From: Pseudomonadales bacterium
GTDB lineage: Bacteria > Pseudomonadota > Gammaproteobacteria > Pseudomonadales > JAHRWD01
DNA: 40,959 nt
Assembly (NCBI GenBank): GCA_016763075.1
Contig: JAESUM010000058.1
Span: forward strand, 1 to 40,959
Direction of reading: 5' to 3'
Both the position numbers and the translations under genes were made by a program. Every line of letters begins with the position of its first letter. Positions within the stretch are counted from its first letter, which is position 1. This document shows, in pieces, positions 16,982 through 38,778 of the stretch. Below the pieces are notes generated by a model. That model made no database searches. It saw only the letters and a list, made by a program, of their open reading frames with translations, and was not told where the DNA came from.

Positions 16982-17317
16982 ATGACCTTTATCGTCACCG
17001 ACAATTGCATCAAGTGCAAATATACTGACTGTGTTGAAGTATGTCCCGTTGACTGCTTTTACGAAGGCCCCAATTTTTTGGTAATTCACCCAGACGAATG
17101 TATCGATTGCGGACTATGTATTCCTGAATGCCCTGCAGAAGCCATCTTTGCAGACGATGAGGTTCCCGCAGATCAAGTACAGTTCTTCGAGATCAATGAA
17201 GAGCTCGCAGAGATCTGGCCAAACATCACTGAAATGAAGCCAGCACCAGATGACGCGGCTGAATGGGATGGCGTTCCTGATAAGCTCAAACATCTAGAGC
17301 GCGAAATAGCGTCATAA
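16982..17317 (+). CDS. fdxA: Seven-iron ferredoxin (3Fe-4S/4Fe-4S), FdxA
   Basis: 111 residues with nine cysteines in the FdI pattern: Cys9, 12, 17, 21, 25 and Cys40, 43, 46, 50 ([12 protein letters not shown]). The spacing fits Azotobacter FdI, in which one 3Fe-4S and one 4Fe-4S cluster are bound. The second half is an acidic tail, as in FdI. GGAG lies 7 bases before the ATG. It is a cytosolic electron carrier whose partner is not evident here. The position between mutS and rpoS is conserved in Pseudomonas-like genomes. A very long hairpin terminator follows. A separate 8-base inverted repeat (GAAATCAG/CTGATTTC, 16861-16885) lies in the gap after mutS and lacks a T-run. Confidence 0.97.
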
Positions 17318-17335
17318 GCATCCAGTTTGAACCGC

Positions 17336-17397
17336 ATTAAAAAGCGGGCATAAAAAAAGGCGGTTTGAACCGCCTTTTTTTATGCCCGCTTTTTAAT
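17336..17397. terminator. Bidirectional terminator: perfect 30-base inverted repeat
   Basis: Two perfectly complementary 30-base arms (17336-17365 and 17368-17397) flank a 2-base TG centre. Inside are two GC-rich stems, GGCGGTT/AACCGCC near the loop and GCGGGCAT/ATGCCCGC further out, separated by runs of seven A/T and bounded by runs of five A/T, so a T-tract follows a GC stem on each strand twice. It lies between convergent fdxA and rpoS and would stop transcription from both. Confidence 0.88.
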
Positions 17398-17425
17398 GAC
17401 CAATTAATTACGAGCTAACTGCCAA

Positions 17426-18382
17426 CTAGGCAAATACTAGCTCGCTGGAAAGCCCTTGCTGCTCAATAATCTCTTTCATGCGACGCAGAGCTTCGACTTG
17501 AATTTGGCGAACCCGTTCTCGGGTTAAGCCAATCTCGCTGCCTACATCTTCTAGAGTACTCATATCGTGCCCTCTAAGACCAAAGCGACGAGAGATAACC
17601 TCGCGCTGCTTCTCGGACAACTCGTCTAACCAGCTATCGATGCTGCTTTTCAAATTGCTGTCTTGCAACATTTCCGCAGGATCAATTTGATTATCATCAG
17701 CAACTGTTTCTAACAACGTTTTATCTGATTCTGATGAGATCATGCCATCAACCGATGCCACTCGCTCATTGAGTTTCAGCATCTTAGATACTTCTTCAAC
17801 CGGCTTATCTAACAGGTTGGCAATATCTTCGGGAGTTGGATCATGATCTAGTTTTTGAGTTAGCTCACGCGCAGCGCGCAAATAAACGTTTAGCTCTTTT
17901 ACAACATGAATCGGTAACCTAATGGTACGGGTTTGATTCATTATCGCCCGCTCAATAGTTTGTCGAATCCACCAGGTAGCGTAGGTAGAAAAACGAAACC
18001 CCCGTTCAGGGTCAAACTTTTCAACCGCGCGAATCAAGCCAAGATTTCCTTCTTCGATGACATCAAGCAACGTCAAACCGCGGTTGATGTATTTTCTCGA
18101 AATCTTTACGACTAAACGCAAATTACTCACGATCATATGATCGCGGGCTTTGGCTTCACCACAAATAGAGCGCCTAGAGAGAAACACTTCCTCCTTAGCG
18201 GATAGCAGCGGCGAAAAGCCAATTTCACCCAAGTATATTTGAGTGGCATCTAGCGTTTTTTGAAAGCCATCCCCTTCAGGAGTGCGGCGGTCTTGTTTCT
18301 TACGCCGATCAACTGTTCTACGCTCACTACCTGACTTTTCGCTATCAGAAGCGTCTGACGCATCACCTACCAATTCTCGCAT
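17426..18382 (-). CDS. rpoS: RNA polymerase sigma factor RpoS (sigma-38)
   Basis: 318 residues. It has an acidic/charged N-terminus, region 1.2 ([21 protein letters not shown]), region 2 with [44 protein letters not shown] split over 2.1-2.2, the 2.3-2.4 segment [17 protein letters not shown], region 3, and region 4.2 ([18 protein letters not shown]). Length is close to E. coli RpoS (330) and the gene follows nlpD as in E. coli and Pseudomonas, distinguishing it from rpoD or rpoH. It controls stationary-phase and general stress genes. The 184-base gap to nlpD contains a candidate promoter. No strong Shine-Dalgarno element precedes the ATG. Confidence 0.97.
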
Positions 18383-37611: not shown

Positions 37612-38778
37612 TCAATTTTTCGGATCGATCTTCGGCAACATTGGATGCGCTTCAAGGCCAGCTTCTGCTCGACTAGAAAACATAAAATTCAACCCTTCAA
37701 TAGCCGGTGGGATTTCAGAAATTATGATATTTTGGTCAGCTTGTAGTTTTGGCAAACTAGGGTGCCCATGAAACAACGTATTGACCCCACGTCGCTCCAT
37801 GATAATCAAATTATCATGGAGCTTAACCTGATTCACGGGGTACTTTCGGTTCTCTAACCCGTAACCGATCAAATCTTGATTAGAAGATCCAACCCCCATT
37901 TGAAGTACTGAACCTCTGACGATGAGTGTTCCGCCGTCAGGAATATCGATCAAGCGGCTATCCTTTGAAGAAAATGAGGCTATCACGCTGTTTTCGATGA
38001 TCGTTATCGCTGCCCGACTCTTAACTTCATGGCCTTCGTTTTTCCCCGCAAGTATCATACTGTTACGTATAATAAGTTCGCCGCCATCAACATATATTCC
38101 GTGTGCGCGACCATTCAACCCTAGTTGCTCGAAGCGGCTATCTTCTATTAATACGGTTCCAGCCCAGCGTCCAGTCAACAGCCCTTGTTCGCTATGATGA
38201 AAGTACACGTGGGACAGCGTTAAATTTTCCCCTTCATGCCGTACGCATGCGCCATTTCTGTCGCGTACTCTTATCTCTCGGCATTCAATGTTAATGATTT
38301 TTGTATTGTTGCCTTTAGTAATAATTGCACCCTTGCCCTCTGCAGAGGCTTGTTTTATTACTACATGACCAACCCCAATTACGGTGACGTCGTTCGCCTT
38401 TATGACCAATGGCTGGGTATAGGTTCCTGCGCCAATTTTAAGCACATCTCCATTCTTTAAAACTCTACTAGCGTGACTTAACGAAAATACAGATTCGCCA
38501 TTAACCCAAATCCCTTCAATTTGATTTTTTGCGTCAACGGGTAGTGGTAGCCACTCACCAAAATTTAGCTTAATTTCCTCTGCAACCGATAAGCCCGACT
38601 CCCTCAATGAAAAAGCAAATTTGAACAAAGGTATTTTAGTTTCAAGTAGTGAGCACCCTCGATAATACACTTCGCGCAGCTGCTCTGGCGCCAGCACATA
38701 GGCACCTGCAAATGCAAAATGAACGGATACTCCCGCTAGAATTAAATACTGCTTAAGAAACGTTTTAAGTCTATGCAT
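37612..38778 (-). CDS. Membrane-anchored or exported right-handed beta-helix protein
   Basis: 388 residues from the ATG at 38778. An N-terminal hydrophobic segment (YLILAGVSVHFAFAGAYVLA) acts as a signal peptide or anchor. A region of about 65 residues with no recognised domain follows. From about residue 95 to 350 the sequence shows repeated short strands spaced 20-25 residues apart (DVTVIGVGHVVI, TKIINIECREIRV, NLTLSHVYFHHS, GTVLIEDSRFEQL, ELIIRNSMILAG, AITIIENSVIAS, GTLIVRGSVLQM), the pattern of PbH1 repeats in pectate-lyase-like folds. Polysaccharide binding or cleavage is the usual role, but no catalytic set is evident. It is convergent with priA, and lies 55 bases from its stop with no clear terminator. 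Confidence 0.72.
   Translation of the reverse strand: MHRLKTFLKQYLILAGVSVHFAFAGAYVLAPEQLREVYYRGCSLLETKIPLFKFAFSLRESGLSVAEEIKLNFGEWLPLPVDAKNQIEGIWVNGESVFSLSHASRVLKNGDVLKIGAGTYTQPLVIKANDVTVIGVGHVVIKQASAEGKGAIITKGNNTKIINIECREIRVRDRNGACVRHEGENLTLSHVYFHHSEQGLLTGRWAGTVLIEDSRFEQLGLNGRAHGIYVDGGELIIRNSMILAGKNEGHEVKSRAAITIIENSVIASFSSKDSRLIDIPDGGTLIVRGSVLQMGVGSSNQDLIGYGLENRKYPVNQVKLHDNLIIMERRGVNTLFHGHPSLPKLQADQNIIISEIPPAIEGLNFMFSSRAEAGLEAHPMLPKIDPKN

Follow-up and report, generated by a model that had tools for sequence, protein, structure and literature searches.

A perfect 31-bp inverted repeat between convergent fdxA and rpoS genes as a probable nested two-way transcription terminator

Terminators that serve both DNA strands, with A-tails mirroring their T-tails, have long been described (PMC1852404, in the passages cited here). 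In Bacillus cereus, mismatched intermediates of terminator stems were observed, as stepwise change predicts, and the accessible text of that study places the elongation and shortening of terminators outside its analysis (PMC5381666). A different route is suggested by excerpts of two further papers: in E. coli, imperfect palindromes gain symmetry through template switching (PMC7202029), and RNA genes have been used to argue that RNA stems are created and maintained by such switches (PMC8794818). Among the titles and opening lines of abstracts listed in our literature search, the scope of which excluded most subscription journals, none dealt with template switching as the origin of longer bacterial terminators. 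A bacterial test bed for template switching as a maker of RNA stems would be provided by outer arms that are perfect yet differ from species to species.

Here we describe a probable two-way terminator from a Pseudomonadales bacterium. The stretch of DNA analysed, called the window, is the whole of a 40,959-nt contig. A ferredoxin gene, fdxA, and the sigma factor gene rpoS are both transcribed toward a 108-bp gap (17318-17425), which contains a long inverted repeat (Table 1). The repeat had previously been noticed as a perfect one of 30 bases at 17336-17397; its symmetry is indeed perfect, the arms being 100% complementary over 31 nt around a 2-nt centre, and that earlier extent (17336-17397) was one pair short of the full 17335-17398. 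Written left to right, the + strand is CATT-A5-GCGGGC-AT-A7-GGCGG-TTTGAA-CCGCC-T7-AT-GCCCGC-T5-AATG, and the - strand reads the same except for the centre, TTCAAA. Each strand thus carries an inner GC stem plus T7 nested within an outer GC stem plus T5. The outer module consists of A5 (17339-17343), GCGGGC (17344-17349) paired with GCCCGC (17384-17389), and T5 (17390-17394).

Table 1. Features of the fdxA-rpoS region, in window coordinates.
Feature	Coordinates	Strand	Basis or remark
fdxA, ferredoxin, 111 aa	16982..17317	+	NCBIfam FdxA_Protbact, 169.9 bits (cut-off 135); transcribed toward the palindrome
11-nt direct repeat GTTTGAACCGC of hairpin loop and right stem	17325..17335	+	at the edge of the left arm
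Left arm of perfect 31-bp inverted repeat	17335..17365		arm complementarity
Outer nested module (putative)	17339..17394		encloses the inner module; stem 17344-17389 on both strands
Inner bidirectional terminator module (putative)	17352..17381		A7 17352-17358, GGCGG..CCGCC stem, T7 17375-17381
Right arm of perfect 31-bp inverted repeat	17368..17398		arm complementarity; centre TG 17366-17367
rpoS, sigma factor, 318 aa	17426..18382	-	NCBIfam RpoS, 486.1 bits (cut-off 394); transcribed toward the palindrome

Folded as RNA, the 64-nt element reaches -48.1 kcal/mol on either strand (z scores of -12.8 and -12.6; shuffle mean about -12), and the inner module with its flanking pair (17351-17382) reaches -17.5 kcal/mol on each strand. 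Symmetry of this length is exceptional in the window: the next-longest perfect arm elsewhere measures 13 bp (at 37794), and when the whole window was shuffled 50 times with dinucleotides preserved, the longest perfect arm (loop of up to 10 nt) came to 8-11 bp.

A GC-rich stem-loop followed by a T-tract is present on each strand, and the element lies downstream of both convergent genes. Judged from this anatomy and position, the palindrome is very probably a bidirectional intrinsic (Rho-independent) terminator common to fdxA and rpoS, with a second module nested around the first. On either strand, the first structure made by RNA polymerase would be the inner GGCGG..CCGCC hairpin with its U7 tail. 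Reading on for about 8 nt would complete the outer GCGGGC..GCCCGC stem, followed by U5, and would give escaping polymerases another opportunity to stop. Since a T-tract is required on each strand, A-tracts mirror the T-tracts and the whole becomes an inverted repeat. The earlier note had proposed a terminator of this two-way kind, nested twice on each strand, and the proposal is supported by the anatomy, by the convergent genes and by the recurrence of A-tract/GC-stem/T-tract palindromes at the site in relatives, described below. As the note further suggested, the palindrome may insulate rpoS. In kind the element is ordinary; it is extreme in its length and its nesting.

Just outside the left arm, an extra copy of TTTGAACCGC together with its preceding G forms an 11-nt direct repeat, which overlaps the arm by 1 base. 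A shared word of at least 10 nt arose in 22 of 5000 flank shuffles. The copy had been noted before and had been thought to give an alternative fold; the copy is real, but the fold has little support. When 17320-17374 was folded, the copy gave only CCGC/GCGG (4 bp) beside an intact inner hairpin, and it was unpaired with the hairpin in the minimum-energy fold of 17300-17430. Speculatively, the direct repeat may be a leftover of hairpin-templated copying.

The same site was compared among relatives at 130 fdxA loci, the window's included; a convergent rpoS lay within the fetched stretch in 49, and the other 81 were left out. Among the 30 fdxA-rpoS gaps no longer than 360 nt, 18 contain a perfect palindrome of at least 10 bp, and 17 of these 18 have A4/T4 in their arms; no perfect palindrome of 10 bp was found in the other 12 short gaps. 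Arms of at least 20 bp are present in five of the 30 (two of them from near-identical sister species), those of the window being the longest. Across the fdxA-rpoS gaps, the longest perfect arms were 31 (window), 24, 22, 22, 20, 19 and 18 bp, followed by values of at most 15. Such a hairpin is not essential at this site, because 12 of the 30 short gaps are without one and two exceptions occur in the genus g12 (loci L178 and L181).

The window's own family is represented in the comparison by its genome (G000) and one other species, the congener G001. The G001 gap has the same core and 20-bp perfect arms, with A-T in place of G-C at 17346/17387 and at 17348/17385 and with tracts of 6/6 rather than 7/7. 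Paired changes in related gaps had been put forward as a check on the terminator, and these two pairs, together with the matched tract lengths, are of that kind. Beyond the G001 arms, the next two pairs are mismatched (C.A and A.C on the + strand); both would be G-U in the RNA of the rpoS strand. The family of G006, examined for more congeners, was represented by two genomes only.

Turnover of the element was followed in genus g12, in which the fdxA locus was recovered (E up to 1e-40) from nine of 12 genomes, all nine with the gap. A GACCC..GGGTC core with its A/T tract is kept in six of these gaps, and four of the six have long arms: 22 bp in L005 and L006, 25 bp in L176 and 21 bp in L177. 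The palindromes of L005 and L006 are identical, with 2 changes in a gap of 161 nt, whereas the outer arms of the three lineages L005/L006, L176 and L177 have nothing in common, each being perfect in itself. L180 and L182 (90% coding identity) have arms of 13 and 15 bp; the changes that separate their flanks, left and right, are small and ordinary. The remaining gaps are varied. No palindrome of at least 7 bp was found in L178, and L179 has a different hairpin at the site. The 235-nt gap of L179 contains a 12-bp-arm terminator; visual inspection adds an extended but imperfect inverted repeat, GTTCAAG.../...CTTGAAC with a GC hairpin inside, which may be what is left of a long palindrome. In L181, from genome G060, a 24-bp perfect palindrome without a T-tract is present, and its 17-nt end, GGGGACAGTTTACTTTT, occurs in 77 copies in G060 with at most 1 mismatch (40 forward, 37 reverse), often as close inverted pairs; it was not found in the four other genomes searched. 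Judged by this distribution, the GGGGACAGTTTACTTTT family in G060 is REP-like. A second example of turnover is the gap behind rimI, which has a symmetric terminator in G001, and by eye none such occurs in the 170 nt following the G000 ortholog (76% identical).

Symmetry past the first tract exceeds what two T-tracts need, and its likeliest source would be hairpin-templated (template-switch) copying of flank onto flank. Folding back at a short core hairpin, the nascent strand would take one flank as the template for the other, and useful products would be kept by selection. As a general account, namely that two-way terminators are lengthened and periodically rewritten in this manner, with the outer arms replaced as perfect mirrors and sometimes a nested terminator gained in one step, we hold this tentatively, at a little below an even chance. 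The perfect complementarity of the 31-bp palindrome, and the sharp edges of the tract-paired terminators described below, are such as template-switch products would have.

Whether terminators in general are symmetric beyond their tracts was surveyed across 2.27 Mb of sequence drawn from G000 (the window included), G001, G006, G054 and G030, the last chosen for its ordinary 13-bp fdxA-rpoS hairpin. In these five genomes ORFs were called mechanically and hairpins followed by at least T5 were collected. Four fdxA-rpoS gaps were left out of the extension counts, because that of the window is the finding itself and G006 and G054 had been chosen for theirs. The tract was fully paired in 21 of the 53 convergent terminators. 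Beyond it these 21 had 9, 7, 5, 5, 4, 3, 3, 2, 2 and 1 extra pairs and eleven zeros (mean 1.95), compared with a mean of 0.46 in a cross-paired control that joined the left flank of one terminator to the right flank of another (364 pairs); the sum of 41 extra pairs was reached in 0 of 20000 permutations. Among co-directional terminators, 14 of 72 were tract-paired, with a mean extension of 1.14 against 0.11 in the control (143 pairs). The extension was uneven by genome, G030 having almost none (3, 3 and eight zeros; n=10). The 666 kb sampled from G000 and G001 contained six palindromes with perfect arms of 17 bp or longer, every one of them in a convergent gap, a class that makes up 61 of the 410 gaps there; the fdxA-rpoS gaps account for two of the six.

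Two other elements with 20-bp perfect arms in convergent gaps (L146, position 6187, in G000; L159, position 19230, in G001) lie beside folD and purA, the purA call resting on a partial protein query below the family cut-off. In G001, TGTCT followed 5 of the 20 T-tracts that come after a hairpin, compared with 6 of the 1534 remaining ones; these five cases represent three elements (L156, L159 and L170), two of them counted on both strands. In G000 the pattern was weaker, TG[TC]CT following only 2 of 21 hairpin T-tracts. A shared downstream TGTCT element was considered as the main cause of the symmetry and rejected, because the cross-paired control retains such motifs and yet extends little (the mean of 0.46 given above).

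The strongest alternative is that the symmetry stems from selection on RNA pairing alone, by point mutations and then compensatory ones, with no copying mechanism. We regard this as a serious possibility, though somewhat doubtful. It has a precedent in Bacillus cereus, where excerpts of the terminator study report compensatory evolution, mismatched intermediates and stronger constraint on bidirectional terminators (PMC5381666). In its favour are the greater frequency of paired tracts in convergent than in co-directional terminators (21/53 and 14/72; Fisher p 0.016) and the small ordinary changes that separate L180 from L182 on both flanks. Against it, extension lengths do not differ between the two classes of terminator (p 0.53, small numbers), and the outer arms of L005/L006, L176 and L177 are perfect within species while sharing nothing among these lineages.

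The edges of the symmetric parts bear on the same choice. They were analysed in 40 tract-paired terminators, of which 25 were convergent (with the four fdxA-rpoS gaps), 14 co-directional and one divergent. The first mismatch was wobble-type in 18 of the 40, compared with 25% in the control (p 0.006) and with an expectation of one third (p 0.13). This excess, like the two would-be G-U pairs outside the G001 arms, speaks for selection on RNA; an excess of wobble-type breaks would also be expected from single transitions. Over the 10 positions past the first mismatch, complementarity was 116/400 (0.29), against 0.30 in the cross control, and it was 37/140 in the 14 tract-paired terminators with at least 3 extra pairs. 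It was no higher after wobble-type breaks (33/108) than after others (37/132). The symmetric part of tract-paired terminators ends abruptly, with no fading. Fading stems are thus not seen, because complementarity is at background directly after the first mismatch, wobble-type breaks included, and this argues against a purely stepwise origin.

Flank comparisons were made for traces of individual copying events. Anchored flank alignments of the window and G001 gave p values of 0.01-0.04 in all four pairings (left-left, right-right and the two crossed), because the first ATG is shared, so that straight and crossed homology did not separate. Among the 28 flank pairings of genus g12, L180 and L182 are homologous left to left and right to right (0/400 shuffles each), which is plain descent; the crossed pairings L005-L176 and L176-L177 (uncorrected p 0.015 and 0.0125) were not counted as evidence. 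The earlier note had taken the symmetry to suggest recent duplication or templated repair. The overall pattern favours that idea, although no event could be polarised and both flanks of L180/L182 reflect plain descent. We lean to copying plus selection because long outer arms combine perfect pairing and sharp edges with sequences that change from one congener to the next; on these sequence comparisons, a hairpin-templated origin of the outer symmetry is plausible.

Other readings of the element fare less well than copying plus selection. The long stem could serve mainly as an RNA or DNA structure, with termination secondary. Stems of 31 perfect pairs are long enough for an RNase III target, a 3'-end stabiliser, a cruciform or pairing between mRNA 3' ends, and the ends of the two transcripts are complementary by construction. 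We consider this improbable, given that the element has every part that termination requires and that many relatives have T-tract modules on much shorter stems at the site. Much less probable again is a mobile or REP-like repeat copy that landed between fdxA and rpoS. Such a landing is real at the same site in G060 (the 24-bp palindrome whose 17-nt end occurs 77 times), but the window palindrome occupies a single site in G000, a draft that is about 95% complete, and has its core in common with the orthologous G001 gap. No second copy was found in the G000 draft, and the other matches in G000 and G001 were the orthologous site and weak short ones; a dispersed REP/BIME-like palindrome, which occurs in many copies, was rejected on this basis. 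A foldback artefact of assembly or amplification hardly deserves belief, since the genome is indeed a draft of 95 contigs but the element is internal to its 40,959-bp contig, lies at a recurrent site and has a related perfect palindrome in an independent genome.

Among known systems, the fdxA-rsmZ-rpoS region of Pseudomonas has the same convergent genes as the window. RsmZ was found in the fdxA-rpoS gap, on the rpoS strand, in all six Pseudomonas-named loci (L037, L041, L042, L055, L063 and L075) and was absent from the other ten of the 16 loci tested. The long Pseudomonas gaps are not comparable with that of the window because they carry RsmZ, whereas the window's gap has just 108 bp and no Rfam match. 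The RsmZ sRNA (RF00166) was accordingly rejected as the identity of the element, the Rfam search of the window giving no family at gathering score.

Cruciform-forming inverted repeats of E. coli resemble the window's in lying near gene ends and being mostly parts of intrinsic terminators; the same text, as far as cited, describes E. coli as poor in arms of at least 13 bp with spacers up to 8 (PMC6060812), against arms of 31 in the window. At quasipalindromes, a polymerase that switches template copies from the nascent strand and thereby improves the symmetry of an imperfect inverted repeat (cited part of PMC7202029), and it was argued that a single such event can create or repair an RNA stem (cited part of PMC8794818); of such a process, the window would show the end product alone. 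The bidirectional terminators of tail-to-tail gene pairs are described in the relevant passages of PMC1852404 and PMC5381666 as GC stems with A-tract and T-tract sides that often work on both strands. Compared with these, the window's element nests one stem-plus-tract module inside another on each strand and has 31 perfect pairs, more than any other in the sets sampled.
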